A stretch of DNA of 64,000 nt from Chalciporus piperatus (taxonomy: Eukaryota > Basidiomycota > Agaricomycetes > Boletales > Boletaceae): assembly GCA_038093975.1 (NCBI GenBank), contig JBBPTG010000041.1:1-64000 (forward strand). The letters are read 5' to 3'. The notes beneath the pieces are model-generated. The model worked only from the letters and a program-made list of their open reading frames with translations. It had not been told where the DNA came from and did not search any database. Shown in pieces: positions 8,497-38,266 of this stretch. The position numbers and the translations under genes were made by a program. Every line of letters begins with the position of its first letter. Positions within the stretch are counted from its first letter, which is position 1.

Positions 8497-10334
8497 ATGA
8501 CAGACTCGGACAACGCACTTGAACCTGCAGAGAAAAGTCTAGGCCCAACGTTCACCATACAAGGTCCTAAAGAACTTGAAAAAGAGTGGACAAGGTGTAT
8601 AGCATGGCTTTCCGATGGCCGGGTCGTGGCAGGCTCAACCGATAGCACCTTGCGGATATGGAATTTGATCACCGGCACGCAAGAGGGTAGCTCGATGGTG
8701 CACCGGGGTTCGGTGACTGGGGTCATCACCACAGAAGACGGGCGGATTATCTCATGTACAAGGGTGGATAAATGTCTGAGGGTATGGAACACGGACACGG
8801 ACGAACTCACTAACGGCCCGTGGTCGACCGAGGATTATGGTCCTGCTTGGTGCATGGCTTTGTCTCAAAATGAAGAGCTCCTCGCGAGTTGTCACCCCGA
8901 AGGGATCGTCATATGGGAGATGGCGGGGACCATGCGAATCAGAAATTTCATCAGCCACGACTCCAGCAGAGAGTTTCGGTATGCCAACTCAGCTTGTTTC
9001 TCTCCCGAAGGCGATAAACTCGCAATAGTATACAACTCCTGGATCCTCGTTCTTGATGCTGCAAGTGGCGAAATAATCTTTGGACCACTCAAGGTCGCCG
9101 AGCCCCGCGGGTTATATGCTGTTGTTTGGTCATCTGAGCAATCTGACCGACTTTTCGTTGCCTGGGACGATCAGATCCGCTCATTGGATTCGAGCACGGG
9201 CAAGGTCATCGATGAACCAAAACAATCCCATCGCGACTCAGTGAGGTGTCTGTCCCTCTCTCCCGATGGAAAATGGCTTGCCAGCGGATCGAATGACAAG
9301 ACAGTCATTCTTTGGAACGTGGACTCGCGCTTGCCTATCGGAGAGCCACTCGACCATGGTTCATCCGTGTTGGCAGTTGCGTTTTCTCGTTCTGGGGAAT
9401 TTGTTGCATGCACTGGCCACGGGGGGAGCATCTCAGCCTGGCGTGTCCCGTGGTGGGACAATAACAATCACAAGGTTCCATTGTTCATTCAATGGTTAAT
9501 TCATAAACTAACATTGATGTTGCAGACCCCTGATCCCCTCCTTGACGTGCGTGCTAGCTCTCTGTGTCTACTGTTTCTGCATTTCTGACACACCGTATGC
9601 GTAGCAATCAGCAGTGGTTTCACCCGACATTCCCTCAAATATCCCTCGTGAATCTGACTTTGGTTTCCTCGATGTCAGTTTCATTGCTCTATTGCCAGAA
9701 ATTGATGCCTAATTCCGGCATTTTGTAGGCGCCTGCATCACGTCACCCCCGTCCTCTTCAAACCCATTCAAGAATGAATTCATCCGATCCCCCGCCCCGG
9801 GTACAGCACCGATTGCTCTCCTGGAGGTTGTGGAACATGTTGCCCCGATTTGTACTTGATCGCTCGCACCCAATATACATGGGACGGGCGGAACCAGTAA
9901 GCCAATCACCCCCGTTTTCATCACACATACTGAATAAGTCTGTTTCGGATAGGGTACACAGGTTGCTTCAAGGTCCACCATCAGCAACAACCCTTCCACC
10001 CCTTCTGACTTCCACCCCTTCTGACTCAGCACCCACCCCTCCTCTCGTGGTCGCCGAGGAGTCCGCTTCCGGAGAGAGCAGCGAAGAGAGCGGGAACGAC
10101 TCGATCGCGGAACCAGAAGTCAACGACATCGGATGTTGTGGGTTCTTGTCCCGTCGGCGGCCTAGAGCGACCCCGGCACGAGAGCGAGACAACATCCCTG
10201 TTGGTCAGTCTCTACCTCTAAACAATCCACCCTCGTCCACCAATGCTGGCATTTCCAACCACCCACCCTCACGCCCTGCAGCTCAGGATATCCTAGAGCT
10301 CTCTGCTGTTGTACAATCATCCGACTCTCCCTGA
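8497..10334 (+). CDS. WD40-repeat protein, copy 1 (WD-1)
   Basis: Exon 1 (8497-9474, 326 codons) encodes one seven-bladed WD40 propeller. The blade cores are TLRIWNL, CLRVWNT, GIVIWEM, WILVLDA, IRSLDSS, TVILWNV and SISAWRV. Small exons follow: 9526-9546, 9605-9673 and 9729-9896 (SWRLWNMLPRFVLDRS, IYMGRAEP). A last exon starts at 9953. A perfect 16-bp tandem duplication near 9994-10025 shifts the frame of the last exon and gives a stop at 10022 in the spliced form. If the 56-nt intron before it is retained, the frame stays open to 10334. The tail seen in the other copies ends with a motif GCCGFLSRRRPRA and is low complexity. Propellers of this kind mediate protein binding; the partner is unknown. 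Confidence 0.85.
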
Positions 10335-10981
10335 AGCCTTGCTTTTATGTTTCGTCTAGTATACCCTTTTCGCATCACCCGTGACAACATACAGATTATA
10401 TTCTCAACTGTTATCAAATTTCTGTCGCGAGTACGGAAAGATCGACGCCGCTTCTGACGAGCGTGTCGAAGAGTACATCCGTAACCTTTGGACTCTATTG
10501 TATTTTACAGCGACAAGAATCATGACATCATCTTGAGACCCGCTATCTGTGCAATTTTTACTGTTTGGAACTCTCTAAAACGTGTTTCAACTTGTTTACA
10601 CCGATAGACTCCCGCATATCTACTGTACAAATCTCAACGGACTGTCCCTCCGTAACAAGTCGCTCAAATTGCGCAAACGCAATTCTCGGCTTGGATCCAA
10701 GAAAAACCTGGATGATCGAAGTTCACCATCGAGTTCGAAGGTAAAACTCTTCAATTCCGGTTTGTGTAGGCCTCCGAGTCATATTGGCGATCGAAGTACA
10801 GCCAGAGATGGTGGAACGCGATACCCCGACTGCCAGTGTCATCAGTTGCTGCAGCTGAGACTCATACTCTTACGACGCCTAGCTACTACTGAACTTGCCA
10901 GCGTCACGATGGTCGACGTGCTCGCGTTATAGCGACTATATGCACATGATGCATGATGTGATAAACTGTTCTGATGTGTAT
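10335..10981. other. Conserved 3' flank between WD-1 and Hal2
   Basis: No complete gene is visible. Parts of this spacer recur next to the other WD40 copies, for example around 19260-19390, 24470-24745, 32060-32390 and 36110-36440, so the spacer was duplicated along with them. A short frame (FCREYGKIDAASDERVEEYIRNLW, near 10430-10490) is preserved in several copies. It could be an exon of a small gene or chance. Confidence 0.5.
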
Positions 10982-12345
10982 CTAAGCATTTGCTTTCTCC
11001 GTCATCTCCGCCTGGGCTTTCTGAACAGCAGCCAAAACTTGAGCATGCACATCCCTCCCAGCAGCAATAACCCCATAATTCTCACCCAACGTCCTCCCGA
11101 GACCAAAGTCGAGTGGTTGGCCTCTAGAATCAGTAATCACACCACCTGCCTCTCGCACGAGCAACGATCCCGGAGCGTGATCCTACCCAGGAACGTAGAC
11201 GTCAGACACCATAGACATATGTGCCGCAACGGTGTGAGCTACGAGGTGAACAGTACTCACCCAGATCTTCTCTTTGTATCCCGCCCGAGTGGGCATTCGT
11301 AGGTAAACCCCTCCATCGCCTCTGGTTAAGCAACAGTACTTGGCTTGACTGTCCATCTTTGCCGGTGCTTTCGTGATTTCCAGCAATCCCGCCACCCTTT
11401 CGTTGAATTCGAGATCCGAGTGAGCCGCCTCTACCGATTGCAAAAAGTTGAGCGTCCCAAGAGGGACGGAAGGTATCGTCAGTGGCGTCGAGGTATCATC
11501 CTCAAGGTCGATCTAGACGTCCATGTATAGCGCGTGTGCATTCAACGCATACTGTACATCAGAGGAACGAATCGGGGGGAAACGACAGTCGGAGAACGCA
11601 CCTGCTCGGCACCTTGATCTTTGACGGCGACGAAGATGCAGCCTCTGGGACCATCTGGTTCGGAGCCCTTCACGGCAAGATTTGGACATCCAATAACTCC
11701 AAGTATGACCTCTCCGTCGATCATCAACGCCAAACATACCGCGTACTGTTCGCCACGCAAGAACCCCTTGGTACCATCGATCGGATCGAGCGTCCACCTC
11801 CCTAGTCAACAAAGGTGTTTCAGTCCTCACATCGGTCACGATCGGGGTCGAACGACTCACGTCCCACTCGACCACCTTGATCATTGCCGCGATCGATCAC
11901 ATCCAACAATTCATCAGCCGTGCGTTCCTTCCCACCGAGTCCCCATTCCGCTTCATTCTCCTTGGGAGGGACAACGAGTGCTTCGTTGGCGAGTTCGACG
12001 ATGCGGGTTTTGAGATGGCTATTTCCTCGTCGGAGATCTGTAGCGTCTTCTTCGCCTACGATGGGATCGTCGGGAAAGGCGTTCGTGAGGATGGTGTTGA
12101 CGACGGCTTGAGCGCTGTAGTCCCCAACTGTGTGTATGGATCGTTCAAGGGAGCGAGAGGTGAGATTATAAGAAAATGGGGATCTCGTGGACTTCAACAA
12201 ACTGACCTGTGACAGGCGATTTATCGTCCTTGGTCAACGTCTCGTTTTTAACGAGTTTGGTAAACACAGACGACGTGAGGGCACAGGCGCGTCGGACGGC
12301 GGTCACTGCGACTTGTTTTTCAAGGGCGTATGCTAGTGGAGTCAT
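10982..12345 (-). CDS. MET22: 3'(2'),5'-bisphosphate nucleotidase (Hal2/Met22 type)
   Basis: Five exons on the minus strand (12345-12207, 12127-11861, 11801-11602, 11512-11261, 11182-10982) give 352 aa, close to the ~357 aa of yeast Hal2. The family motifs are all present: DKSPVT and GDYSAQAVV at the N-terminus, the metal-binding VGEED, WTLDPIDGTKGF, and the C-terminal WDHAPGSLLVREAGG. The enzyme removes the 3' phosphate from PAP and PAPS in sulfate assimilation. It is sensitive to Li+ and Na+ and needs Mg2+. This is the only intact copy; fragments occur at 19.1, 24.1 and 35.6 kb. It lies tail to tail with WD-1, and that order is kept in the inverted blocks. Confidence 0.93.
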
Positions 12346-12479
12346 TATGATGGTCGCTGGCAATCGTATACCGCGACGGTGAAGATGTGGGTGCTGGCGA
12401 GGAATATGAGGGTGGAAGGAGAGAGTGACAGTCAGGTTTCGGTGGACTCGGACATGTCGAAACATATACGATCGCGATT

Positions 12480-13035
12480 CGCTGGAGCGTCTGACAAAAC
12501 GATCGCCATTTCTACACGTGATCAGTAGGATGCATTTCTCAAGAGGTAGTACTAGGCACAACATGCTAACAAAAACTACAAACGTTGCCCACACTGCGAA
12601 CTCTGGACCGTCGCATGGCGAGGTAAAAAGCGCAGTCGGTACCTAGCGGACCATTGGGTGGTCTTTCAAGCCGAGGATCGATGGTACAGTGCAAGTTGTT
12701 TGTTGACTCTAGGCTTCAATACATGCTCCAACTGAGCTTCAACTTCGAACCTTTCCTCTCTCGTGGGGACTTCCGAGTTCCCCGTCGTCGTCGAAAATGG
12801 TTCGACATCCATCGTGCTCACGAACTCCTAGGTGAACGCCGGAGGTAAACCAGCTCGCCAGGGAATAATACCAATCTCGGAGATCGTAAAAGCGTGGGTT
12901 CTGTTCCAGTAGGAGGGGAGCTCGGCAGGGAATGCAGATGAATCTCGCTACACGCCGCACGTTACACCTTTCGGAGACCGACGAATCACAGCTCGCGAAT
13001 AACACCTGGCACTCAAGCCGTAGTGATAGACTCAT
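12480..13035 (-). pseudogene. Remnant of an unidentified gene family (UF1), copy A
   Basis: Sequence around 12590-12700 on the minus strand is similar to parts of the genes at about 15440-15900 and 40200-40700. A common anchor is the stretch reading catggcgaggt...gtcggtacc...cggaccattgggtgg on the plus strand. Only short ORFs remain, and none spans the conserved part. I do not recognise the family. Copies B and C show the same protein segments better preserved. Confidence 0.4.
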
Positions 13036-13359
13036 CCCTCATCTCAGAAAGGAAAAAAAAAAGGTTTTTGTTGGTCTCCTAAAAGTATGCTAGGGCTGGT
13101 GAACGGATACATCGCCAGTCGATATATAGCCTGAGTGGGACGTCGGTAGTTGAATATGTGTGGTCAACGAAACCTCGGCGGTCTCATCGCCCAGTACATT
13201 ACTAGTCCATAAAGTTAGCAGTGCGAGATGGATTTAGTTAGACACTCAACTGTGAACGGGGTTGACGAAGACCCAAAAGAGACTTCACTACTCTGCTTGA
13301 TGCAATCACGCTAAGACGCAAGATGTCAGCTGGCTCTTGCAACCAGATGTTGCTGGAAA

Positions 13360-14647
13360 TTATGTATCACCTAGCACATGCCGCTGATGCAAGTTAGTCA
13401 TTGTACACGGGCCATAAGTCACTAATTTACCAGTGAGCCCAGTCATAGTTATCATGGCTTGATGAGCGAGTAAGTTGCCATAAACGTCGATGTTATTGGT
13501 CTCACCTTCGACACCAAGGCAAGAGAAAACCTGAGGGTCGCATGAGAAAGTGACGGGCAAGAATAAAAATGACCACGCACTGTTGCGGGAATATAGGCTA
13601 CAATTGTTGCAACGAAATACGAGAGGCCCTGTATAAGTAACTGCTTCCGAAGTGGGGATTTCGCGAATTGTCTCGATAACCCAACGGCGGATAATCCGAA
13701 TACAAACAGGTCATAAGATATCGCTTGCGTAGCAGAGGTCAGTACATCCCCGCTTAGAAATCATCGACGACGCACTGTAAACGTAGACTATTGTGCTCGT
13801 CGCTGGATCCACGAACACATTGCCACAGGTATCGTTCACCCATGAAGACTTGATGTTCGCTATGTCTGATCAAAAATTATCATGAGCTAACACCCAATAC
13901 GAAGAACGAATTAATATTCGTACCAATTGCAATTGCAGCCCATTGTCCAATAGAAGCGAGCAATAATATAGCATGCACTATATGCGAGTGATTCCAGATT
14001 GTCCAGCTACTTTCAGTGTAAGATGGCCACAGTTAAGAGCAAGTCCTGGATGCTTACGTGCGAATCATCAAATTCATTGAAGCACATCCGACAGCAATGG
14101 TCCCAGTCAACTAGATTGAAAGGATCTTCCATGAGTAGACGATATGCGAAAGTATTGGAAGACTGATTACAGCCGTCAACAGGACGCTAGCTGATTAGAC
14201 TGATTAGTTAGCAGGCAAGTTGAGTGATGAGGGGAACTAACCCGAACAAGCGAAACGGCTGGATCCCCAACTTGTCCCCATTGACCTACGATTGTGTGTG
14301 ATTGCGCCAACCCCTGAGATACTATTCAGACACTTACATGAAAACGAGGCATAAGAGGAGGGAGATACGTCCGACCAGGTAAGGGAGCTTCGCGTGGGTT
14401 ATTTTGGTGACAGTGATCTGAGCAAACGTCCCTACGCACCAGAACCCAGCGGAATGTCACGCGAGAACGCAAGAGGGCGTATTCCACATCCAATGATCCC
14501 AGGTACTCCCATCTGGACACCTTGAGACACCGGTCTTCCATTAAAAAGAGAACCTACACACCCATACAGGCCGAGCAGGCAAAAGTAAAGACGAATCGAG
14601 GCTGCTGAAAGGCGAGACAGCACAGCTGGATCTTGCCATTGGACCAT
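13360..14647 (-). CDS. Integral membrane protein of the basidiomycete multi-pass (7TM-like) family
   Basis: A highly split minus-strand gene. Exon pieces read MVQWQDPAVLSRLSAASIRL with YFCLLGLY, then WEYLGSLDVEYALLRSRVTF, then LPYLVGRISLLLCLVF, QWGQVGDPAVSLVR, GTIAVGCASMNLMIRT, WNHSHIVHAILLLASIGQW, a loop with a Cys (WVNDTCGNVF), YDLFVFGLSAVGLSRQF, GLSYFVATIVAYIPAT and a last short exon ending GDT. Successive hydrophobic helices with the motif W-E-[YF]-L-x-[ST]-L-D-x-E are typical of a large uncharacterised family of membrane proteins in Agaricomycetes. The stop codon is at 13360-13362 and the start ATG at 14645-14647. Some splice phases remain uncertain. Function unknown. Confidence 0.65.
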
Positions 14648-14659
14648 GCTTCAAGGTCA

Positions 14660-15400
14660 ACGAACTTCTGGCGGCGAGAGTGAGGACACACAAAAAGCGA
14701 ATTAAATTTCGCTCACAGGTACAGAAGCACCGTCCCCCCAGCTGACAGAACTTTGACGTGCACTAATATCAAACAAATGCAATATATGGCAGTCGAGGCA
14801 AGAGCGTGGGTGCGAGAAATGATCCCGCTCTTGAAGACTTGGGCCCGGGCCGGGTGGTGTTATTTCGATCGACTATCCGTCGCTGTACCGATTGAAAGTA
14901 GCAAGTGACACAAATTGACCATACAGCTACGCATTCATGACGATCTAACCATCTAGAGCCCTTGAGGGATGTTCAAATTGACCGTGGAACGGACATGGTA
15001 AAATGTGAAGTACACTTTACCAGATTTGGCCGTTTTCGTGTGAAGCCTGAGAGCCGTTGACTGACAGCTGCTGTCATGATAGTCTCCTTTCAATCGATAT
15101 CAGTCGTTCTGCTTTACTGACTCGTCAGACCTGAAGGCAAGTACTTACAACCAGTAGAATGCGCCACATCGAGACAGCCCTCACCACTAATGAGCACAGG
15201 TATAAATTCACCGTTTCCAAATCGTCCACATATCACATCAAATGGTGTCTCCACGGTTATTTTTCACCGCAAGCGACGAATCCCACACTTCTCTCCGACA
15301 CGGCTGGTCCTTACGATAAATGGCTAATGAAATCATTACAAAGGGTCGTGGAAATTGACGTTCAAGATACAAGAAGCATAATTGATACTTACCAAAGATA
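14660..15400. other. Intergenic, no gene recognised
   Basis: No convincing coding region. At about 15160-15290 a short stretch resembles the sequence near 16105-16260 (both contain atgccacatcgagacag or a close form and gagcacaggtataa), a local diverged duplication. Confidence 0.4.
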
Positions 15401-15439
15401 ATGGGCAGGGAAGAAAAGAAACTAACAGTGTGGGCAGAA

Positions 15440-16300
15440 GTGGTGCAGCTCTGGAGTGAACATCGTCAGTTCAATGTGAAACAAAGCAAAGAAATGGGAT
15501 CAACAAGGAGTGACACAAGGACTATAAGACTGATACCACCGCAGGCCAGCGCCCTCCTCCCCCAAGAAAGCAGTGAGCCACTGGAACTGTTCGACGGCTG
15601 GGATATCCACCGCGAGAACGAGCAATTCTCCACGACGGCCAACATAATGGGGAGGGAGGCGGAGCTCACGAGGCGCGAGCACAGACTCAAAGTGCACGTA
15701 AACCTTGCGAACTAGCGGACCATCGAGTGGCCTGGGGGCTTGCGGGGCATCACAGTGGTGGTAAGCAAGTGCTCTGAGGTACTGTTCGGATACGAGGTAA
15801 CCTAACAATACTAGGTGTTCCTCAGCGGGGCGTAGGATCAAGAAGGATTGGACAACAGAGTAGTTGGAGGCGGGATTCGGAAACCTGTGGGAAGTGGTAT
15901 GCGCACACAAACACGAACTTCACGAGCGAGACGGCGAGGCCACCTACTATAGTAGTACTAGCTCAGAGCACCCGCATGGGAGATCGTTGCTGGACATCCC
16001 TGAGAGTGGAGTGTCCAAATACGTCGTCACAGCCACTGCCCTATTCCGTTTCTCTTTCGCATACAATGTAGCACAAATGCAGCATCGATATCCTTGGTAC
16101 AACCAGTGGAATATGCCACATCGAGACAGCTCTCGCCATTAACGAGCACAGGTATAAGTTCTCCTGGAACCTTTGTTCCCAGATCATCCACACCCTGCGG
16201 GCAAAGTTTCCAGCAGCGTTCCCCCCATGGTTTCGTTTCGCACGCACGCAAGCGACGGATCCCTCAAACACTGAAAGGTAAGTATCTACTGCCGTTCTCA
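15440..16300 (-). pseudogene. Unidentified gene family UF1, copy B
   Basis: The minus strand carries a long open stretch (15910-15500). It includes HRFPNPASNYSVVQSFLILR, LLGYLVSEQYLRALAYHHC and VEQFQWLTAFLGEEGAGLRW. Copy C at 40.2-41.0 kb has matching segments (RFPNPTSNHSV, REFFGPRGEWFILTLDH, VPEQVQWLSDQLKQ). The upstream part (16300-16030) has a hydrophobic run (SMWHIPLVVPRISMLHLCYIV) that could be a membrane segment. I do not recognise the family. The 3' flank is also similar to that of copy C, so whole segments were duplicated. Whether this copy works is unclear. Confidence 0.4.
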
Positions 16301-16905
16301 CACGTTTTCTGCAGCTGGTGCATTATCTCACTGCGGACGAGATTTCCTATCCTCGCAATCTTCTAATCCTCGAAGCAAAACCGCCAGGCCAGTGGTACTC
16401 CCGTTCCAGGATGATCTTCGATGGGTCCTGGAGATTCCGTCCGGTGGACCGAAAATCATGGTGGTTATCGGCCCTCCGAGGAGCGCCAATCACCAAATGA
16501 CGAGGGAGGCTTCCCTCTCCCACATTTTCTCAGATTCGTGAATCATGCTCGGATCGCGATGAGCCTTACTACCCAAACTAGAACTTCGATGGTATCACTA
16601 CAGTACAACCTGGAAAAACAGACTTTTAAGGGTTATGATCGCCACAAGGCCGGACATGTGGTATCGCCAAGCTATATATACATACGTCACCCTGCACCAC
16701 CGTTAATACGGTCTGCACCTATCGTAACGATGTCTGGACAGCGGGTTAGACGTTGCCAGTGATAGCCCGAGTGCGAGAACACTCACGTACGAGAGGAATC
16801 CGAGGTGAGTTTCTTTATCGAGTGGTTTCTATCGCCGAATAACACGAAGCTGTGCGGGTGAGTTGGACCACGGATGTGTTGCGATGTTTTCCCTCTGCCA
16901 GCGTC
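16300..16905. other. Region without a recognised gene
   Basis: Short ORFs on both strands, none with family resemblance. A TATA-like run (ctatatatacat) lies near 16672. Confidence 0.35.
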
Positions 16906-16909
16906 AGGT

Positions 16910-19058: not shown

Positions 19059-19139
19059 CGCCCGAGACGGGCAATCAGCTGAAGAAGATGCACCGACGAA
19101 ACTGCTGCGACGAACACAGCGAACTCGTTCGTGGAGGGG

Positions 19140-19390: not shown

Positions 19391-21195
19391 TCAGGGAGAG
19401 TCGGACGATTGTACAACGGCGGAGAGCTCTAGGATATCCAGAGCTGGAGGGCGTGAGGATGGGTGGTTGGAAATGCTATCATTGCTGGACGAGGGTGGAT
19501 TGTTTAGAGGTAGAGCCTGATCAACAGGGATGTTGTCTCGTTCTCGTGCCGGGGACGCTCGAGGCCGCCGACGGGACAAGAACCCACAACATCCGATGTC
19601 GTTGACTTCTGGTTCAACGATCGAGTCGTTCCCGCTCTCTTCGCTGCTCTCTCCGGAAGCGGACTCCTCGGCGACCACGAGAGGAGGGGTGGGTGCTGAG
19701 TCAGAAGGGGTGGAAGGGTCGTTGCTGATGGTGGACCTTGAAGCAACCTGTGTACCCTATCCGAAACAGACTTATTCAGTATGTGTGATGAAAATGGGGG
19801 TGATTGGCTTACTGGTTCCGCTCGTCCCATGTATATTGGGTGCGAGCGATCGAGTACAAATCGGGGTATCATGTTCCAAAACCTCCAGGAGAGCAATCGG
19901 CGCTGTACTCGGGGCGGGGGATCGGATGAATTCATTCGTGAATGGTCTTGAAGAGGACGGTGGGGACGCAATACAGGTACCTAAAAATCGCAAGAGGGAG
20001 GTGTCAATTTCTGGCAATAGAGTAATGAAACTTACATCGTGGAAATCAAAGTCAGATTCACGAATGATATTTGATGGAACGTCGGGTGAAACCACTGCCG
20101 ATTGCTATGCATACGGTGTGTCAGAAATACAGAAACGGTAGACACAGAGAGCTAGCACACACGTCAAGGAGGGGATCGGGGGTCTGTAGCGTCAATGTCA
20201 GTTTATGAAATTGACCATTGAATGAACAGTGGAACCTTTCGATTGTTATTGTCCCACCACGGGACACGCCAAGCTGAGATTTTCCCCTTTCCCCCGGTGC
20301 ATGCAACAAATTCCCCAGACCGAGAAAACGCAACTGCCCACACGGATGAACCTTGGTTGAGTGTCCCTCCGACAGGCAAGCGCGATTCCACACCCAAAAG
20401 AACGACCGTTCCATCGTGTGATCCACTGGCAAGCGATTTGCCATCGGGAGAGAGGGACAGACGTGTCACTGCACCGCGATGGCATTGTGTTAGTTCATCG
20501 ATGATCTTGCCCGTGCTCGAATCCAATGAACGGATCCGACCGTCCCCACAGGCAACGAAAAGTCGCTCAGATGACCAAACAACCGCAGATAACAAGCCAG
20601 AATCAGCGACCTTGAGTGGTCCAAAGATTATTTCGCCACTTGCCGCATCAAGAACGACGATCCAGGAGCTGTATGCTATCGCGAGTTTATCGCCTTCGGG
20701 AGAGAAACAAGCTGACACAGAGACTCCGATGGAGTCGTGGCCGATGAAATTTCTGATTCGCATAGTCCCCGCCATCTCCCATATGACGATCCCATTGGAG
20801 TGACAACTCGCGAGGAGCTCTTCATTTTGAGACAAAGCCATGCACCGAGCACGACCATAATCCTCGGTCGACCACGGGCCGTTAGTGAGTTCGCCCGTGT
20901 CCGTGTTCCATACCCTCAGACGTTTATCCTGGGTTGCACATGAAATAATCCGCCCGTCTTCTGTGGTGATGACCCCAGTCACTGAACCCCGGTGCACCAT
21001 CGAGCTACCCTCTTGCGTACCGGTCGTCAAATTCCATATCCGCAAGGTGCTATCGCTTGAGCCAGTCACGACCCGGTCGTCGGAAAGCCATGCTATACAC
21101 CTTGTCCACCATTTTGCAAGTTCTTTAGGAACTTGTATGGTAAACGTTGGGCCTAGACTTTTCTCTGCAGGTTCAAGTGCGTCCGAGTCTGTCAT
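19391..21195 (-). CDS. WD40-repeat protein, copy 2 (WD-2)
   Basis: Same architecture as WD-1. Exon 1 runs from the ATG at 21195 through a seven-bladed propeller (blade ends TLRIWNL, RLRVWNT, GIVIWEM, WIVVLDA, ISAWRV). Small exons and a last exon follow, ending in QSSDSP at 19391. This copy lacks the 16-bp duplication of WD-1, so the spliced last exon stays in frame (GTQVASRSTISND, then VAEESASGESSEESGND and GCCGFLSRRRPRA). In blade 6 the usual ILW is VLLG, which may weaken that blade. Variable residues: blade 6 HRGAVT, blade 7 SSVW and GGKGK. Confidence 0.83.
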
Positions 21196-24748: not shown

Positions 24749-26573
24749 TCAGGGAGTGTCGGACGATTGTACAACAGCAGAGAGCTCTAGGATATCCAGA
24801 GCTGGAGGGCGTGAGGGTGGGTGGTTGGCAATGCCAGCATTGCTGGACGAGGGTGGATTGTTTAGAGGTAGAGACTGACCAACAGGGATGTTGTCTCGTT
24901 CTCGCGCCGGGGACGCTCGAGGCCGGCGACGGGACAAGAGCCCACAACATCCGATTTCGTTGACTTCTGGTTCAGTGGTCGGGTTGTTCCCGCTGTCTTC
25001 GCTGCTCTCTCCGGAAATGGACTCCTCAACGACCACGAGAGGAGGGGTGGGTGCTGAATCAGAAGGGGTGGAAGGGTCGTTGCTGATGGTGGACCTTGAA
25101 GCAACCTGTGTACCCTATCCGAAACAGACTTATTCAGTATGTGTGATGAAAACGGGGTGATTGGCTTACTGGTTCCGCTCGTCCCATGTATATTTGGTGC
25201 GAGTGATCAAGTACAAATCGGGGTATCATGTTCCACAATCTCCAGGAGAACATTCGGCGCTGTACCCGGGGAGGGGGATCGGATGGATTCATTCTTGAAT
25301 GGTCTTGAAGGGGACGGGGGCGACGTAATGCAGGCGCCTACAAATCGTAGGAATTAGGCGTCAATGTCTGGCAATAGAGCAATGAAACTGACATCGAGGA
25401 AACCAAAATCAGATTCACGAGGGATATGTGATGGAACGTCGGGTGAAACCACTGCCGATTGCTACGCATACAGTGTGTCAGAAATGCAGAAACGGTAGAC
25501 AAAGAGAGCTAGCACGCACGTCAAGGAGGGGATCGGGGGTCTGCAGCATCAATGTCAGTTTATGAAATTAACCATTGAATGAACAGTGGAACCTTTCGAT
25601 TGTTATTGTCCCACCACGGGACACGCCAAGCTGAGATGTTCTTCCCTACCCCGGTGCATGCAACAAATTCCCCAGAACGAGAAAACGCAACTGCCCTCAC
25701 GAGTGAACCATGGTTGAGTGGCTCTCCGACAGGCAAGCGCGATCCCACGTTCCAAAGAATGACTGTGTTGTCAAACGATCCGCTGGCAAGCCATTTTCCA
25801 TCGGGAGAGAGGGACAGACACCTCACTATGTTGTGATGGGATTGTTTTGGTTCATCGATGACCTTGCCCGTGCTCGAATCCAATGAGCGGATCTGATCGT
25901 CCCAGGCAACGAAAAGTCGGTCAGATTGCTCAGATGACCAAACAACAGCATATAACCCGCGAGACTCAGCGACCTTGAGTGGTCCAAAGATTATTTCGCC
26001 ACTTGCCGCATCAAGAACGAGGACGGTCCGTGAGTCGTATGCGATTGCGAGTTTATCGCCTTCGGGAGAGAAACAAGCTGAGTGGGAATACCGAAACCCT
26101 CTGCTGGAGCCGTGGCTGATGGAATTTCTGATTCGCATGGTCCCCGCCATCTCCCATATGACGATCCCTTTGTAGTGACAACTCGCGAGGAGCTCTTCAT
26201 TTTGAGACAAAGCCATGCACCGAGCACGACCATAATGCTTGATCGACCACGGGCCGTTAGTGAGTTTGTCCGTGTCCGTGTTCCATACCCTCAGACGTTT
26301 ATCCATCTCTCCACATGAAATAATCCGCCCGTCTTCTGTGGTGATGACCCCATCCACCAGACCCTGGTGCACCATCGAGCTACCCTCTTGCGTACCGGTC
26401 GTCAAATTCCATATCCGCAAGGTGCCATCGCTTGAGCCAGTCACGACCCGGTCGTCGGAAAGCCATGCTATACATGCTGTCCACGCGACTTTTCCAAGTT
26501 CTTGAGGAGCTTGTATGGTAAACGTTGGGCTTAGACTTTTCTCTGCAGGTTCAAGTGCGTCCGAGTCTGTCAT
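24749..26573 (-). CDS. WD40-repeat protein, copy 3 (WD-3)
   Basis: Seven-bladed propeller from the ATG at 26573. The exon 1 reading frame runs to 25560, with the intron donor expected just before that as in WD-1. Tail exons end at 24749 (VVEESISGESSEDSGNN, GCCGLLSRRRPRA). No break in exon 1. Variable positions differ from the other copies: blade 1 GKVAWTAC, blade 2 SCGEMDK, blade 3 SCHYKG, blade 6 HHNIVR and SFDN, blade 7 NHGSLVR and VGKN. Blade 4 has DSRTVLVL with one residue more than WD-1. The gene stands in the same order with its neighbours as WD-1. Confidence 0.83.
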
Positions 26574-28460: not shown

Positions 28461-28676
28461 GTGTCCCTCCTTCTAAGTACCAAAGAAAACTCACAGGCAA
28501 CTCACAGGCATGTTCCCGACTCCCGTGCCACGCGACAAGGTCTGCTGACTTTCTGATGGCCGTAAGTTACATGGACCATGCGGCTCACATACCCCGCATT
28601 CTCACAGAGATGCGGTATCTCCTCTCCGGACCCCCACCACGATCTTTCAGTGTTCACTTAGTATTCTTCGTTACCG

Positions 28677-31155
28677 ATGACGGACAAGCACATCTTCGGC
28701 TCCGCAGAAGGGCTCGTTCTCGCCTCGCTGAGGGGAGCAGTAGCACAGAACCCAGCATTACGTCTGTACGTGTCCTCCTCGTCCAGACGTACTAAGGCCG
28801 ACCGACCCCTATCCGCAACCCAGACACTCACAGACGAAAACAGCCTACGTAGCCCATCCGCCTGCATCCACCCGGATCGCTGTCATCTCAGGCGGCGGCG
28901 CTGGTCACGAACCTGCTCATGCAGGCTACACTGGTCACGGCATGCTCACCTCCTCTGTTTCCGGTGATATCTTTGCCAGCCCTAGTGCCAAGCAGATTCT
29001 AGCAGCCATCGAGTTTGCTGCATTCGCAGGTCTGGACAGCGAGAAAGGGGAAAGGGCAAGAGACGTGGTGATCGTGATCAACAATTACACGGGCGACAGA
29101 CTTAACTTTGGACTTGCGATCGAACAAGCGCGAGCGAGATATCCCGGACTGAATATAACGTCCGTGCTCAATGCAGACGATGTCTCGCTCCTGCCCCAGA
29201 CCCGCGGAGAAGAATCAGAACCGAGCTTAGTGGGCCCAAGAGGACTTGGAGGTAATATTTTCGTGTGCAAGGTGTTAGGTGGTTACACGACCTTTGGAGC
29301 GATAGGAGGCGTGTCTACATCCCGTTGGTAGCGTTTTCCCGTTGAAGCTGACAACGTTACCAGCTTCGACGCCATCTACGTTCCCCCGACCTACGCTCGA
29401 GCGGACGAAGCTGCTTGGTGACGCACTTGTAGCTCATCTCAGAAGCATTGGTGCTACCCTAAGTCATTGCCACGTCCCTGGCCGGGCAGCCCACACCGGT
29501 GCGTTCCTAATCCAATCTGTATCAATGTACGAAAATCACGAATCACTCGCTGTTCTTTGGCAGCCTCTGAGCTCATTCCCGCGTCAGAAATAGAATTGGG
29601 ACTTGGGCTCCACAACGAGCCAGGTGTACGTCGCGTCACGCTCACCTCCCCGGATTGGCTCATAGGCGAGATGTCGCGTGTCGTTAGAGGGAGTGGTGGA
29701 GGTTGGCGAGGATCCGATATTTATATCGGTAGGTTGATTCAATTCGGGGAGAACCGGCCGTATATCATGATTTCTAGAAAGGCAAGAACCATATAACGCA
29801 CAGGAGACTTGGATCCGCTCTGAAGACGAGACTGTGTTGTTCATCAATAACCTCGGAGGCATCTCGATGCTCGAGATGGGTGTTATAGTCGAACAAGTTA
29901 GAAAGGAACTTGGTAAGTCCTGGGTTACTTTGGGTTTAAATAGACATGAATTAATAGTCGCTCCACTGTATGGTTAAGAATCGCACGGGATTGTCCCAGA
30001 ACGAATTTACAGCGCGCCGTTCATGACGTCTCTCAATGCCCCCGGCTTCTCCATATCGCTTGTCAATGTGACGAGGGTTGAAGAGACCGTGAACGGTGCG
30101 TTGTTCCCGTCCTCCTCTCTCGTGCCTTTCCAACGAAACGATCTCTCCAGCCAACTTTCCTGATGACCCGATTGATTTACTCGCCCTCCTCGATGCACCC
30201 ACTGAAGCATTGTCTTGGGTCGGAGCGAAGGTATGGCCGGGGCGGGGTAATCGTCTCGTTTCCCGCAACCAGGACAAGGAGGCAGAGGCCGTAGAGTCAC
30301 TCCAGTCGATCCGCGATTCCTTTGGCCCCACCCAATCGACAACTCATACAAGCAACAATCGAGATTTGGGAGTTTACACTTGGACTGACCTTGGGTTTTC
30401 AGCGCAAGAAGTCGTGAGAGGCATTCGAGGTGCTTGCGAGAGCGTGTTTTCAGCCGAACCAGACATGACGAGGTTCGATACCATCGTCGGCGATGGCGAC
30501 TGTGGTCATACATTCTCGGGTGGTAGTAAAGGTGGGTTACGTGAGCTAATGACATTGAAACGACCGTTCTGAATTCCTCTATATCATCGATAGCGGTCTT
30601 AACGGTGTTGGACAGTGGTGAACTAGATCCCCGGCTGATGGATCCTGCTTCGTTTGTCACAAAGATGGGAGAGGTTTTAGAGGGGAGCATGGGAGGGACG
30701 ATCGGTGCACGTACGTCCTTTCCACTTGTTTCCGACTCCTTACCAGTACCAACCCGCTCATCTTGTACGTAGTATTCGCGATCTTCTTTACTGCGTGGTC
30801 TATCGGTCTGCGTGGAGGACCGCCGAATTCGACGTCTCCGCTCAACGACGCCCTCGTCGCGCTCGGAAAACACACTCCTGCGCGGCCAGGCGACCGGACT
30901 GTCGTCGACGCTCTCGTCCCGCTCTGCGCTTCCGTGAGTTCGACCTCGGGAGGACTCGAAGAAGCCGTTGAAGCTGCGAGGAAGGGAGCGGAGAGCACGA
31001 GAGGTATGAAGGCGAGGCTCGGGAGAGCCTCGTATGTGATCGCAGATGGGGAGGCAAACAGCGAGGTTCCGCCAGACCCTGGAGCGTGGGGTGTTGCTGC
31101 CCTGGTGGAAGGGTTTGTGAGAGGAGTACGAGATGTGTCGAACGTTGCTCCATAG
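28677..31155 (+). CDS. DAK1: Dihydroxyacetone kinase (DAK1-like), possibly frameshifted
   Basis: It starts MTDKHIFGSAEGLVLASLRG. Exon 2 has TKTAYVAHPPASTRIAVISG followed by GGAGHEPAHAGY. DAK proteins bind dihydroxyacetone through a covalent His of the K domain. NNYTGDRLNFGLA, LSHCHVPGR, LGLGLHNEPGVRR and INNLGGISMLEMG follow. The DhaL half has RFDTIVGDGDCGHTFSGGSK and DGEANSEVPPDPGAWG before the stop at 31153. The enzyme phosphorylates dihydroxyacetone with ATP in glycerol and methanol metabolism. Two joins are suspicious: between FDAIY and LLGDALVAHLRSIG (near 29380-29400), and before ETWIRSED (29700-29812). The frames do not connect with the splice sites I can see, so the copy may be damaged or spliced unusually. 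Confidence 0.8.
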
Positions 31156-31560
31156 ATGGCGGTCTGATTGGACTCGGAGGGTCTTGGAGTTATCACCATG
31201 TAATATAATTGTACCGGACAAATCTATCGTTTCTTGCACGTCGAACGTTCTGAGCTCCTCGTTGGCCCGTTTGAAGGGTATGCACTCGACTACTTACAGA
31301 GGTTGACATTTCAACGACCAATTTTTATCATGAAAGTCGTGGTATTCAATAATGATTGAGATGATATCTTGGTGCGCACATAACGATAGGAGAAATTCCG
31401 ATATCGAGCGCAAATCGAGCGTGATGAAAACGCTCACCTTAGATCGCTCAGTCTATGTAACTTCCACGTGCACAAGGACGGGTTGATGTCTCTGTCCCCG
31501 GGCCAAGTTTCATATGAGAAAACAACCAAGACACCCAAACTCACTCTATACATACGCCAT
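31156..31560. other. Intergenic segment, duplicated near 38560-39000
   Basis: The sequence from accatgtaatataattgta (31190 region) is repeated with some changes from 38564, and in both places it leads into the 3' part of a MEF1 copy. No gene is visible inside. Confidence 0.6.
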
Positions 31561-32070
31561 GCTGGTCCTTGACTTGGGGTCACACAGGGTCACACCGCGC
31601 AACTTGGCTCGAATACCCAAAAATATCGTTCAGCGGCACCTCCGCCGTACACAAAAAACGCCTCGTCCAAAACTTTGCTATCCAGGGTCGTCCCCCGGCG
31701 TGCGTTCAGACTGCCAATGACTGCAGCCTGGAATTCGCCTGGGGCGACTTCGGACAACCCTCGGCGGCCCGGCGGTCAGGATTGGCTCCAGGGAGATAGG
31801 CTTCATCTTGGCGCAGATCCTCACGAAAGGCAGCGATGCTGGGGATACGGAATGCAAGCTCGGAAGAATCGACGATATGGTAGGAACCCTCTTGAAGGAC
31901 CATTCGTGCACCGACGATCGAGTTACCTGAGAGTGTTCCCTTTCAACCCTAAAACAAGGCAAACACGAATCAGGGGAGGTACTCCGGGCTTGTCAAGCCA
32001 CGTCAGACGATATACGCGCTTGCTTCGGGTCTCAGGCTCGAGCAAGAGGAGGAGACAGTGGTGATGATGG
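31560..32070 (-). pseudogene. MEF1: Mitochondrial elongation factor G (MEF1) fragment 1
   Basis: Minus-strand pieces match domain IV of [31 protein letters not shown] and the downstream AFRP-type segments, in broken frames. Only the C-terminal third is present. EF-G moves tRNA and mRNA on the mitochondrial ribosome. A longer but also broken copy is at 39.0-40.0 kb. Confidence 0.75.
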
Positions 32071-32394
32071 GGACGGAAAACAGCAAGTTCAGTAGTAACT
32101 ACGCCGTCGTAATAGTACGAGTCTCCTGCAGCACCTGACGACACTGGCAGCCGAGGTATCGCGCGTTCCACTGTGTCCGGCTGTACTTCGATTGCCAATA
32201 TGACAGGTTGAGACGTTGGAGGGCTACCGAAACCGGAATTGAAGACGGAAAAACAACATAGTCATTCGCGATAGCAACTTGAATGAGATAGCAGGTTAGA
32301 ATACAATCCATGTATTGTCACGAGTGCCACGAAAGGGGTCTACTAGACCAAACGTAAAGGCGAGACTTCAGGGAGTCTCAGATGGGAAAATGCT

Positions 32395-34220
32395 TCAGGG
32401 AGTGTCGGATGATTGTACAACGGCGGAGAGCTGTAGGATATCCTGAGCTGCAGGGCGCGAGGGTGGGTGGTTGGAAATGCCAGCATTGCTGGACTCGGGT
32501 GGACTATTTCGAGGTAAAGACTGCGCCATGGGAATGGTCTCTCGGTCTCGTTCTTGTGCCGGGGACGCTCGAGGCCGCCGACGGGACAAGAACCCACAAC
32601 ATCCGATGTCGTTGACTTCTGGTTCCGCAATCGAGTCGTTCCCGCTCTCTTCGCTGCTCTCTCCGGAAACGGACTCCTCGACGACCACGAGAGGAGGGGT
32701 GGGTGCTGAGTCAGAAGGGGTGGAAGGGTCGTTGCTGATGGTGGACCTTGAAGCAACCTGTGTACCCTATCCGAAACAGACTTATTCAGTATGTGTGATG
32801 AAAACGGGGGTGATTGGCTTACTGGTTCCGCTCGTCCCATGTATATTGGGTGCGAGCGATCGAGTACAAATTGGGGCAACATGTTCCACAACCTCCAGGA
32901 GAGCATTCGGCGCTGTACCCGGGGCGGGGGATCGGATGGATTCATTCTTGAATGGTCTTGAAGGGGACGGGGGCGACGTGATGCAGGCGCCTACAAAATG
33001 CCAGAATTAGGCATCTATTTCTGGCAATAGAGCAATGAAACTGACATCGAGGAAACCAAAGTCAGATTCACGAACGATATTTGAGGGAATGTCGGGTGAA
33101 ACCACTGCTGATTGCTACGCATACGGTGTGTCAGAAATGCAGAAACAGACACAGAGGGCTAGAACGCACGTCAAGGAGGGGATCGGGGGTCTGCAGCATC
33201 AATGTCAGTTTATGAAAATAACCATTGAATGAACAGTGGAACCTTTCGATTGTTATTGTCCCACCACGGGACACGCCAAGCTGAGATATTCCCCCCTTTC
33301 CCAGTGCATGCAACAAATTCCCCAGAACGAGAAAACGCAACTGCCCTCACGTTAGAACCATGGCCGAGTGGCTCTCCGATAGGCAAGCGCGATCCCACGT
33401 TCCAAAGAATGACTGTCTTGTCAAACGATCCGCTGGCAAGCCATTTGCCATCGGGAGAGAGGGACAGACACATCACTGAGGTGCGATGGGATTGTTTTAG
33501 TTCATCGATGATCTTGCCCGTGCTCGAATCCAATGAACGGATCCGACCGTCCCCACAGCCAACGAAAAGTTGGTCAGATTGCTCAGATGACCAAACAACA
33601 GCATATAACCCGCGAGAATCAGCGACATCGAGTGGTTTAAAGATTATTTCGCCACTTGCCGCATCCAGAACGAGGATCCAGGAGTTGTATGCTATTGCGA
33701 GTTTATCGCCTTCGGGAGAGAAACAAGCTGAGTCGGAATACCGAAACCCTCTGCTGGAATGTTGGTCGATGTAATTTCTGATTCGCATGGTCCCCGCCAT
33801 CTCCCATATGACGATCCCTTTGGAGTGACAACTCGCAAGGAGCTCTTCATTTTGAGACAAAGCCATGCACCAAGCAGGACCATAATCTTCGGTCGACCAC
33901 GGGCCGTTAGTGAGTTCGTCCGTGTCCGTGTTCCATACCCTCAGACATTTATCCAGCTGTGAGCATGAAATAATCCGCCCATCTTCTGTGGCGATGACCC
34001 CAGTCACCCAACCCTGGTGCACCATCGAGCTACCCTCTTGCGTACCGGTCGTCAAATTCCATATCCGCAAGGTGCCATCGCTTGAGCCAGTCACGACCCG
34101 GTCGTCGGAAAGCCATGCTATACAATTTGTCCACAGATTGTTGGGTTCTTTAGGACCTTGTATGGTAAACGTTGGGCTTAGGCTTTTCTCTGCAGGTTCA
34201 AGTGCGTCCGAGTCTGTCAT
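32395..34220 (-). CDS. WD40-repeat protein, copy 4 (WD-4)
   Basis: ATG at 34220 (MTDSDALEPAEKSLSPTF). Intact propeller exon, then tail exons with SWRLWNMLPQFVLDRS and the last exon ending QSSDTP at 32395. Tail motif GCCGFLSRRRPRA present. Variable residues: blade 1 NNLWTNC, blade 2 SCSQLDK and HQGWVTG, blade 3 SCHSKG, blade 6 HRTSVM and SFDK, blade 7 GHGSNVR and KGGN. There is no Hal2 piece next to its tail; a MEF1 fragment stands there instead. Confidence 0.84.
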
Positions 34221-34549
34221 AGTCGTAGGTCTGAGGAGCAATGAGTAAAAGCGGAGTGGATGAAGACACAGGACGAACTTTCAACCTGCAGGACCGATTG
34301 ATCGATGAGCGTGGAAGACGAAAATTGCATTGTGTACTTGTTGTGGACATCAGTGGGTCCATCCCGCGTAGATATTTCAAACCCAATTGATTGTGCTGAG
34401 TAGTGCCAAACGCAGCTCGATCATTTCACCCGCACGATGCTCGAAGCATGAATCCAAAGTACAACGGATTGGTTACCAGTCTACCAGTAGTCTACCTCAG
34501 TAACATTCGAGTTTTCAAGGAAATGAAAATTTTCCATTGCATTCCATGT

Positions 34550-35585
34550 CCAGTCGAATGCTGTGGTAAATCTTTCCGCTTTACCACCGCCGGGCCGTTG
34601 GAGACTCCAGATGGCAATACAATATCGAGCTGTATATACGCATACACGCTTGCATTACACGACCTCTGAGATAGGGCTTGATCAACAACTGGAGCTGCGG
34701 CCCATTCGTCGGGTCGTTCTTCAACACAAACCTTTGCACGGTTGTCGATCTCACTCGCGGGGACGGCGAGTCGGAATTCGAAGGCGTGGACGAGCGTGAA
34801 CAAGAAGGCTTTCATTCCAAAGGGAGAGTGTTGCGGTTCGCAATGAAAAGGGACTAACTGCACAGAGGGGGCTCACTCGACGCTCCACGAAACTCGCGCG
34901 TGTTCGAGAACGTATATGTTTCGTATCATCGCCCTTGGTGCTCGGACGAGTATTTCTTCCACTATGCAACCGTAACGATTCGCGACATCAATTCGACCGT
35001 GGTTTCAAATCAGTGTGTAAAATGAACGCACCGACGGCGAGCGGATCATCGACGTCCTCGACTTTGACCACGTCCCGGAGTATTATACTACCTTTTTGAC
35101 GTTGGTTGATGGCCTCCTGGTCCCCGTCTTCGTCGAACACGACTCCCAGTGAGTCGATGATTTTGAGACCGCGCTCCAGTTGGACGGTTTGTAGGTCCTT
35201 GGTATGTCCAGGCTGAGCCGCAACAGCGCGAGCCTTGTCGAGGTCAAAGTAAAGTTGGCATGGATTTGATACATAGATGAGAGTCAAACGAACCTACCAA
35301 CCACACCGACGTTGACGGTTTGCGCAGCGCTCGGCTTGGACGCTTTCAGTAGGCGTAGAAGAGCCGGAGCAGTTGCCGGAGACAAATTTGATTGTTGATT
35401 GGCAGGCGCTGATCGGAATGGAACTGTCGGTGTATAGTGCCGAAGATACCTCAACCACTGTTGCGCGTTCTCCTCGGGACGAGATCTAAAACACGATTCT
35501 GCCTCAAAAACGATGCCCATGTGCACGTGCGAGGAGAACCTCGAAAGAAGAAGAAAAACGACCACGGACCTATTTTATTGAGAAC
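34550..35585 (-). pseudogene. Grn1/GNL3-type GTPase, copy 4 (P-loop deleted)
   Basis: VCAVAAQPGHTKDLQ-type sequence is present (AVAAQPGHTKDLQTVQLERG, IDSLGVVF, VKVEDVDDP), as is ENAQQWLRYLRHYTPTVPF. The P-loop is cut off after VNVGVVG, and the 5' half of the gene is missing. Its 5' end abuts Hal2 fragment 3 at 35585. Confidence 0.78.
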
Positions 35586-36060
35586 GAACAGATGGTCCCA
35601 GAGGCTGCATCTTCGTCGCCGTCAAAGATCAAGGTGCCGAGCAGGTGCGTTCTCCGACTTGTGATTTTCCCCGATTCGTTCCCCTGATGTACAGTATGCG
35701 TTGAATGCACACGCACCACACACGGACGTCTAGATCGACCTTGAGGACGGTACCTCGACGCCACTGACGATCCCTCCCTTCGATCGTGAAACGCTCAACT
35801 TTTTGCAATCGGTAGAGGCGGCTCATTCGGATCTCGAATTCAACAACAGGGTAGCGGAATCGCGCAACATCAGGAAAGAACCGGCAAAGATGGACAGTCA
35901 AGCCAAGTACTATTGTACGAATTCCCACTGGGACGGGACACAAAGAGAAGATGTGGTGAGAATTATGGGGTTATTGCTGCTGGGAGGGATGTGCACGCTC
36001 GGGTTTTGGCTGCTGTTCAGAAAGCCCAGGCGGAAATGAGGGAGAAGGCAAATGCTTAGA
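35586..36060 (+). pseudogene. Hal2/Met22 fragment (block 5), 3' exons
   Basis: It begins inside exon 3 (gatggtcccagaggctgc) and continues through intron 3 and exon 4 (FLQSVEAAHSDLEFN, KMDSQAKYYC). An internal deletion removes the region around VREAGGV, and the last codons before TAG are kept (EKANA). Tail to tail with WD-5. Confidence 0.82.
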
Positions 36061-36443
36061 TACACGTTAGAGGAGAGCAAAAGTCTGCGGATGTACAGTT
36101 GATTGCATCATGTGCATATAGTAGTTGCTATAACGCGAGCACGTCGGTCGTCGTGACACTGGCAAGTTCAGTAGTAACTGCGGTGTTGGAAGAGTACGAT
36201 GCGCATTCAGGACAGCGATTTTAGAGTTCCAAACGGTAAAATTTGCTAAGATACGAGCATTTCGCCATCCAAGATCATGATGCGATGATTCCGGTCACCG
36301 TAAAATACAATGTAGTCCAAAGGTTACGGACGTACTCTTCAATACGCTCGCAGCAGAAATTTGATGAGAGTTTAGAATATAATCTGTATGTTGTCACGAG
36401 TGACGCGAAAATGGTATGCTGGACGAAACATAAAGGCGAGGCT

Positions 36444-38266
36444 TCAGGGAGTGTCGGACGATTGTACAACAGCAGAGAGCTCTAGGATATCCAGAGCTGG
36501 AGGGCGTGAGGGTGGGTGGTTGGCAATGCCAGCATTGCTGGACGAGGGTGGATTGTTTAGAGGTAGAGCCTGATCAACAGGGATGTTGTCTCGTTCTCGT
36601 GCCGGGGACGCTCGAGGCCGCCGACGGGACAAGAACCCACAACATCCGATTTCGTTGACTTCTGGTTCCGCAATCGAGTCATTCCCACTCTCTTCGCTGC
36701 TCTCTCCGGAAGCGGACCCCTCGACGACCACGAGAGGAGGGGTGGGTGCTGAGTCAGAAGGGGTGGAAGGGTCGTTGCTGATGGTGGACCTTGAAGCAAC
36801 CTGTGTACCCTATCCGAAACAGACTTATTCAGTACGTGTGATGAAAACGGGGGTGATTGGCTTACTGGTTCCGCTCGTCCCATGTATATTGGGTGCGAGC
36901 GATCGAGTACAAATCGGGGCAACATGTTCCACAACCTCCAGGAGAGCATTCGGCGCTGTACCCGGGGCGGGGGATCGGATGGATTCATTCTTGAATGGTC
37001 TTGAAGGGGACGGGGGCGACGTGATGCAGGCGCCTACAAAATGCCAGAATTAGGCATCTATTTCTGGCAATAGAGCAATGAAACTGACATCGAGGAAACC
37101 AAAGTCAGATTCACGAACGATATTTGAGGGAATGTCGGGTGAAACCACTGCTGATTGCTACGCATACGGTGTGTCAGAAATGCAGAAACAGACACAGAGG
37201 GCTAGAACGCACGTCAAGGAGGGGATCGGGGGTCTGCAGCATCAACGTCAGTTTATGAAAATAACCATTGAATGAACAGTGGAACCTTTCGATTGTTATT
37301 GTCCCACCACGGGACACGCCAAGCTGAGATTTTCCCCCCGTAGCCAGTGCATGCAACAAATTCCCCAGAACGAGAAAACGCAACTGCCCTCACGCCTGAA
37401 CCATGGTTGAGTGGCTCTCCGACAGGCAAGCGCGATCCCACGTTCCAAAGAATGACTGTGTTGTCAAACGATCCGCTGGCAAGCCATTTTCCATCAGGAG
37501 AGAGGGACAGGCACTTCACTACGCCGCGATGGGAGTGTTTTAGTTCATCGATGACCTTGCCCGTGCTCGAATCCAATGAACGGATCTGATACCCCCAGGC
37601 AACGAAAAGTCGGTCCGATTGCTCAGATGACCAAACAACACCATATAGTAAACCGCGAGAATCAGCGACCTTGAGCGGTCCAAAGATTTTTTCGCCACTT
37701 GCCGCATCCAGAACGAGAATCGTCCAGTTGTATGCTATTGCGAGTTTATCGCCTTCGGGAGAGAAACAAGCTGAGTCGGAATACCGAAACCCTCTGCTGG
37801 AGTGTTGGTCGATGTAATTTCTGATTCGCATGGTCCCCGCCATCTCCCATATGACGATCCCTCCTTCGTGACAACTCGCGAGGAGCTCTTCGTTTTGAGA
37901 CAAAGCCATGCACCAAACAGGACCATAATCCTCGGTCGACCACGGGCCGTTAGTGAGTTCGTCCGTGTCCGTGTTCCATACCCTCAGACGTTTATCCTCC
38001 CTTGCACATGAGACAATTCGCCCGTCTTCTGTGGTGATGACCCCAGTCACCGAACCCCGGTGCACCATCGAGCTACCCTCTTGCGTGCCGGTGATCAAAT
38101 TCCATATCCGCAAGGTGCTATCTCCTGAGCCAGTCACGACCCGATCATTGGAAAGCCATGCTATACACCAAATTGTCCACTCTTTTTCAAGTTCTTCAGG
38201 AACTTGTATGGTGAACGTTGGGCTTAGGCTTTTCTCTGCAGGTTCAAGTGCGTCCGAGTCTGTCAT
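36444..38266 (-). CDS. WD40-repeat protein, copy 5 (WD-5)
   Basis: ATG at 38266. Intact propeller and tail exons, last exon ending QSSDTP at 36444. Variable residues: blade 1 EKEWTIWC, blade 2 SCAREDK, blade 3 SCHEGG, blade 4 NWTILVL, blade 6 HRGVVK and SFDN, blade 7 NHGSGVR and YGGK. The sequence downstream of exon 1 is almost identical to that of WD-4 over several hundred bases (33130-33240 and 37175-37280). This suggests recent duplication or gene conversion between these two, yet the variable codons differ. Confidence 0.84.

Follow-up and report, generated by a model that had tools for sequence, protein, structure and literature searches.

Paralogous WD40 propellers of Chalciporus piperatus vary at the positions of the HNWD recognition surface and probably form a recognition repertoire outside the NLR architecture

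Little is known of the genes with which mushrooms distinguish self from non-self after hyphal fusion, or of the way in which fungi sense other organisms within the cell. The closest described system is that of the HNWD proteins HET-D, HET-E and HET-R of Podospora anserina. Passages of PMC1805685 report that in the WD repeat of the Podospora NWD genes the codons 7, 9, 25 and 27 are positively selected and flank the conserved positions 8 and 26. Functional HNWD alleles usually carry 11 repeats, modelled as two propellers, according to the part of PMC12222747 that deals with them. The WD40 repeats of high internal conservation treated in passages of PMC4986451 concern NOD-like receptors (NLRs), the type described by Dyrka et al. 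2014. Here we describe WD40 genes of the bolete Chalciporus piperatus in a stretch of 64,000 nucleotides (positions 1-64000 of contig JBBPTG010000041.1, here C41; hereafter the window) from an assembly of 35.5 Mb in 484 contigs, together with their relatives elsewhere in the genome. They differ between paralogs at the positions that are under selection in Podospora, and a second family that varies at the same positions has a protein kinase downstream. We consider it probable that both families form a repertoire for recognition that lies outside the NLR architecture and in which a fixed propeller is combined with either a kinase or a tail.

The initial annotation, made from the sequence of the window alone, had described six WD40 genes of one family (Family I), and all six were found. 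Copy 1 is located on the forward strand at 8497-10334 (exons 8497-9474, 9526-9546, 9729-9896 and 9953-10334) and its propeller is intact. The others are on the reverse strand: copy 2 at 19391-21195 (exons 21195-20236, 20183-20163, 19980-19813 and 19756-19391), copy 3 at 24749-26573 (26573-25593, 25540-25520, 25337-25170 and 25114-24749), copy 4 at 32395-34220 (34220-33243, 33190-33170, 32990-32823 and 32766-32395), copy 5 at 36444-38266 (38266-37286, 37233-37213, 37033-36866 and 36809-36444) and copy 6 at 62702-64509, whose start codon at contig position 64509 lies outside the window. Exon 1 encodes the entire propeller and is followed by a micro-exon of 21 nt (TPDPLLD), an exon of 165-168 nt and a final exon; this exon model is based on homology to the tails of annotated Paxillus and Gyrodon WD40 proteins and not on transcripts. 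The closest protein matches of the WD40 genes in the window are likewise Paxillus and Gyrodon proteins. The propellers had been called nearly identical, which was too strong, as the six are 82-86% identical to copy 1. The cluster of six is real but is not the whole set: the genome holds 16 close copies, six on C41, six on C22, three on C196 and one on C335. The 15 others are 77-86% identical to copy 1, and all 16 exon-1 proteins are 77-87% identical to one another. Looser relatives are numerous: among the matches listed to copy 1, 67 have E <= 1e-30 (two of them pieces of one place on C59).

In all 16 copies exon 1 is open and the six splice signals are kept, and the tail of about 185 amino acids can be read openly across 178-186 amino acids in 15 of them. 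This tail contains a Trp/Arg-rich segment (SWRLWNMLPRF) and the motif GCCGFLSRRR; the ratio of nonsynonymous to synonymous differences per site (pN/pS) is 0.62 (0.45-0.88; 15 copies, L009 excluded). A search admitting proteins of 0.55-1.75 times the query length gave 24 matches to the tail, the query counted; all 24 were on propeller-bearing proteins and none on a non-WD40 protein. Allelic contigs mistaken for paralogs were considered and rejected, as the HSP60 gene beside the cluster is single copy and no pair of exon 1 exceeds 87% identity. Three further relatives, L025 (C2), L035 (C10) and L032 (C22), have internal stops or a partial propeller, a possible sign of birth-and-death turnover.

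The residues and codons quoted in the initial annotation were re-read and agree, namely the blade-7 codons TCC, TCC, CTC, AAC, GGC and GAC, the blade-6 residues DSVR, GAVT, NIVR, TSVM, GVVK and DTIV, the SGS-x-D-x residues and those of blades 2 and 3. The Podospora positions 7, 9, 25 and 27 were placed on the seven blades, which gave 28 target columns and 322 other columns. At the 28 target codons of Family I pN was 0.416 and pS 0.166, a ratio of 2.50 (bootstrap 1.60-4.42), compared to 0.71 (0.55-0.91) in the non-target columns (Mann-Whitney test of target vs other codons, p = 9e-19). A ratio of nonsynonymous to synonymous rates (dN/dS) above 1 had been predicted for the variable sites, and the prediction held; the variable codons were not evenly spread over the propeller. 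Target pN was higher than exon-1 pS (0.104) in 120/120 gene pairs. As a second neutral yardstick we used the DNA more than 400 bp upstream, which contains a decayed GTPase gene where one is present and differs by 0.089 on average (49 of 120 pairs had enough aligned sequence). The pN of the target codons is thus about four times the neutral yardsticks. When 28 codons were drawn at random 10,000 times, no draw reached the observed pN. The ratio of 2.50 was reached by 198 of the draws, as pS can be very low when only a few codons are taken. When the target columns were shifted by 3-8 codons, pN dropped from 0.42 to 0.03-0.14 and the ratios spread between 0.22 and 1.84, since pS is noisy in small sets. 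At the conserved partner positions, counted in clear blades only, pN was 0.086 at position 8 (five blades) and 0.073 at position 26 (four blades). No two of the 16 copies have the same combination of the 28 target residues, and in each pair 13-24 of these residues differ.

A codon mixture model with free omega was compared to one with omega <= 1 and fitted better, with a 2dlnL of 472.5 on one tree and of 292.8 when each of the seven blades had its own tree. In the one-tree analysis a posterior above 0.95 for beta > alpha was obtained at 22 sites, and 15 of these are HNWD positions (Fisher p = 6e-14); with the blade trees 40 sites were flagged, 20 of them HNWD positions. In exon 1 of copy 1 (8497-9474, forward strand) the 15 HNWD-equivalent codons with this posterior encode residues 33, 48, 50, 74, 90, 116, 118, 134, 164, 207, 225, 248, 266, 290 and 308. 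The AlphaFold2 model of the copy 1 propeller has seven blades, with a predicted local distance difference test score (pLDDT) of 84.1 and a predicted template modelling score (pTM) of 0.84, and Foldseek matched it with probability 1.00 to solved seven-blade WD40 structures, 5yzv being the top match. The top face, that is the d-a and b-c loops with the adjoining strand ends, comprises 125 of the 295 propeller residues. Judged from the strand topology, all 22 high-posterior sites of the one-tree model, and hence the 15 named residues, belong to the top face, in agreement with the edge position that had been proposed for the variable residues. The top face has a pN/pS of 1.42, the bottom face one of 0.38 (pN 0.031, pS 0.081).

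The diversity is placed between genes and not between the repeats of one gene, as had also been proposed: the blades of copy 1 are on average 26% identical to one another (maximum 32%), compared to 82% between genes. Recombination was detected in Family I with the pairwise homoplasy index (PHI) test after removal of the target codons (p = 0.001), and the nearest Family I paralog differs from blade to blade. New combinations can therefore arise by blade shuffling between paralogs.

The set of genes is larger than the initial annotation had it, and it includes a second family with 15 copies that varies at the same positions. Family II was formed by 15 of 20 further WD40 loci (L041, L043-L047 and L050-L058; contigs C114, C85, C207, C179, C81, C231, C341 and C197). 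The other five (L049, L059, L060, L042 and L048) were excluded from the codon tests as too divergent. Three of these, L049 (C207), L059 (C117) and L060 (C39), make up a third subfamily of WD40 genes, whose C-terminus (LHIWCVPS...) differs. In Family II the most variable columns largely coincide with the HNWD positions, and pN/pS was 1.37 (1.10-1.75) for the target codons compared to 0.57 for the others (Mann-Whitney test, p = 9e-15).

Of the 15 members, 14 are followed on their own strand by a match to a protein kinase (PF07714), 445-989 bp downstream; for the fifteenth, on C231, there was none among the PF07714 matches listed. Among the same listed matches only one shares a contig with Family I, far off on C22 at 209 kb. 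The predicted kinases carry the motifs of active kinases, the lysine of VAVK, the catalytic-loop aspartate (HGD) and DFG: VA(V/I)K, HGD and DFG are present in 8/8 downstream stretches, two of which (C114 and C5) come from WD40 genes outside the 15, and a P-loop was recognised by pattern in six of seven kinase stretches. The joined exon set of one gene matches PF07714 in Pfam with an E-value of 1.6e-32. Two kinase exons have a pN/pS of 0.28 in the seven closest stretches (L076 excluded), and the kinase is thus under purifying selection. We infer that the WD40 and kinase exons are part of one transcript in this species. In six Family II genes both parts were compared. Their kinases form two clades with a pS of 0.60-0.70 in all eight between-clade pairs, and in the same eight pairs the propeller pS is only 0.14-0.24 (target codons left out). 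The propeller therefore undergoes an exchange that the kinase does not.

Variation at the same positions was also found in other species. Among 26 Paxillus and Gyrodon proteins, hand-picked from the database matches after partial and two-propeller matches had been dropped, the HNWD-equivalent columns had a mean entropy of 2.65 bits and the rest of the propeller 0.81 bits (p = 9e-16), a comparison at the protein level only that could partly reflect functional divergence of old paralogs. When all 286 columns are ranked by variability, 23 of the top 40 belong to the 26 HNWD columns. The residues are hence not fixed across species in the Paxillaceae. Two WD40-kinase proteins of other fungi, P0106 of Ceratobasidium sp. 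and P0015 of Paxillus ammoniavirescens, carry a protein kinase domain behind the propeller; P0015 is one annotated protein with the same domain order as proposed for Family II.

Families I and II share with the HNWD proteins a WD40 surface in which codon positions 7, 9, 25 and 27 of the repeat are under diversifying selection, and also a WD40 part that evolves in concert across genes whose other domains have diverged, as passages of PMC1805685 describe for the Podospora WD40 part compared to NACHT. They differ in several respects. The blades of copy 1 are only 26% alike, whereas HNWD repeats are more than 80% alike, and Family I has seven blades of fixed number and order with the variation between paralogs. 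None of the 15 NACHT matches in the genome is located on the Family I contigs C41, C22, C196 or C335. Copy 1 has no HET domain at its N-terminus, where the protein begins about 20 amino acids before the propeller, and among the Pfam matches listed for it (25 of 31 families) all are propeller models. NACHT and HET are thus lacking, and the two families look like the HNWD recognition surface at work rather than like members of the HNWD family. The NLR type of Dyrka et al. 2014 is present in this genome on C223, where 12 near-identical WD repeats of 43 amino acids follow about 1.2 kb past a NACHT match on the same strand; these repeats are 84% alike (eight compared) and vary around GHxxxVx. Families I and II differ from it in having neither NACHT nor near-identical repeats. 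Classical diversification between repeats and diversification between genes appear to coexist in this genome.

On the kinase side, the FslK and other tyrosine kinase-like (TKL) kinases are expanded in Agaricomycetes. The Family II kinase, which matches PF07714 and has HGD and DFG, is likewise part of an expanded mushroom family and is at most a candidate member of FslK. PkwA of Thermomonospora carries its kinase at the N-terminus. The top Foldseek match, 5yzv, is the WD40 domain of this kinase, but PkwA is bacterial and the Family II kinase is C-terminal. Term look-ups in the main texts of the kinase surveys PMC3937382 and PMC2838846 found no mention of WD40. In the titles and abstract beginnings listed by the literature searches, neither hypervariable WD40 families outside NLRs nor fungal WD40-kinase repertoires were found. 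The hypervariable face of Family II, which seems to be borne by a kinase, may be an undescribed fungal recognition system.

How such a repertoire could work can be outlined as follows. Each gene encodes one seven-blade WD40 propeller of fixed order, whose framework and bottom face are conserved, whereas the positions of the top face (d-a and b-c loops) that are variable in the Podospora receptors are subject to diversifying selection. Copies would arise by duplication, and recombination between paralogs would shuffle blades and keep the framework alike, while selection would hold the contact residues different among the copies. The top face would bind a variable partner, either non-self or a molecule of a pathogen or host, and the signal would be relayed by a conserved output part, the tail of about 185 amino acids in Family I and the TKL-type kinase in Family II. 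We infer a role of these proteins in non-self recognition or immunity. A wider proposal, to which we give somewhat less than even chances, is a receptor class of the Boletales, for innate immunity or allorecognition, apart from NLRs. Cytosolic WD40-kinases would read non-self via the hypervariable face and signal through the TKL kinase, the kinase-less propeller-tail paralogs would act as co-receptors or decoys, and the propeller would serve as a common cassette that gene conversion keeps alike between the different output modules and that selection diversifies at four positions per blade.

Several points weigh against the recognition repertoire. The mapping of the target columns was fixed after the alignment had been seen and is ambiguous in blades 3-5. 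The codon mixture model is our own implementation, not PAML or HyPhy, and was not calibrated by simulation, and single-tree selection tests are inflated by recombination. About one third of the codon weight was put above omega 1 by the models, which exceeds the 28 target codons, and 20 of the 40 sites flagged with the blade trees are outside the target set. In Family I pS is 0.166 at target codons vs 0.099 elsewhere, and pN at the codons 1-2 away from targets is 0.134 vs 0.047 far from them. In Family II 30 sites reached a posterior of 0.95, but just seven of the 28 HNWD positions are among them (Fisher p = 0.012); pS is again raised at the target codons (0.339 vs 0.200). The tail of copy 1 is frameshifted and ends after 86 amino acids, so that one copy has a broken tail. 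To these points the use of WD40 proteins as endogenous scaffolds has to be added, which is taken up below.

Variable positions of this kind could also arise with no selection, if surface loops were relaxed and ectopic gene conversion imported divergent segments into them. The loop residues of WD40 proteins are naturally little constrained, the recombination is real (PHI and blade mosaics), and the somewhat raised pS at target codons as well as the pN at the codons 1-2 away would fit. However, relaxed constraint cannot exceed the neutral rate, and the target pN of 0.416 compared to an exon pS of 0.104 and 0.089 in the upstream DNA is about four times that; relaxed constraint was therefore set aside. 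At the codons 1-2 away pS was 0.115 vs 0.092 far from targets, with overlapping intervals, and imported segments are therefore unlikely as the explanation. The bottom-face pN/pS of 0.38 also speaks against this origin. This origin is largely contradicted already and we regard it as very improbable.

WD40 propellers are mostly scaffolds, and the paralogs might be adaptors for endogenous targets, such as ubiquitin-ligase receptors, G-beta-like scaffolds or kinase regulators, with a top face tuned to the fungus's own diverging proteins. That the Family I tail was found on WD40 proteins only (24/24, within the length range given above) would agree with such a role, as would a Suillus study that, in the part concerned, places WD40 genes under G-protein signalling (PMC5065116). 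However, two copies have different residues at 13-24 of 28 sites, which is faster than neutral, and in each blade the variable positions are the same in both families and in the Paxillaceae, which is better explained by an arms race or negative frequency dependence than by a one-time specialisation; we consider endogenous adaptors unlikely. More doubtful still is that the propellers serve an NLR system as sensors in trans, as integrated-decoy or helper-type WD40 proteins working with the NACHT receptors of the genome. There are 15 NACHT matches, and the WD repeats on C223 vary at the same kind of position, but the four Family I contigs are without any such match and Family II appears to bring its own kinase.

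The analysis provides two defined gene families in which the recognition surface is predicted at the level of single sites. It suggests that the WD40 recognition face of NLRs is a module that fungi have also combined with further outputs such as kinases, and that each blade uses the same four positions again where the diversity is between genes and not between repeats. If this is the case, searches for fungal receptors based on NACHT miss much of the repertoire.

Around the WD40 genes the window contains further elements. Upstream of copy 1 a degenerate copy of a GTPase gene, which we take to be of the nucleolar type, is located at 6606-8267 on the forward strand, with VGVVGFPNVGKSS seen in the alignment. 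VGFPNVGKSS is the motif of these decayed copies, which were co-duplicated with the WD40 genes; further ones are near 21.4-23.0, 26.8-28.4, 34.4-35.6 and 46.2-47.3 kb, and the last (46237-47295) has no accompanying WD40 gene. The HSP60-type chaperonin gene at 52898-54271 is 95% identical to a Paxillus rubicundulus protein and has one match in the genome. Retroelements lie at both edges of the window, a Gypsy-type element with RNaseH, integrase and chromodomain at 2-1933 and a copia-type element at 57507-62021 on the reverse strand, with an open reading frame of 1504 amino acids and bracketed by identical repeats of 243 bp (57258-57500 and 62063-62305). Beside the WD40 cluster there is an array of genes of about 2 kb, at 43627-45781, 47609-49793 and 49988-52090 and, further along C41, at 67685 (partial match), 69551 and 74592. 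These six related genes or pieces are 70-81% identical to one member. Four reading frames gave no Pfam match and one gave no convincing match in the PDB. By eye, a GQPGTG motif was seen in one copy, and the array members resemble NTPase effectors of the CR/RHS type, for which they are candidates only.

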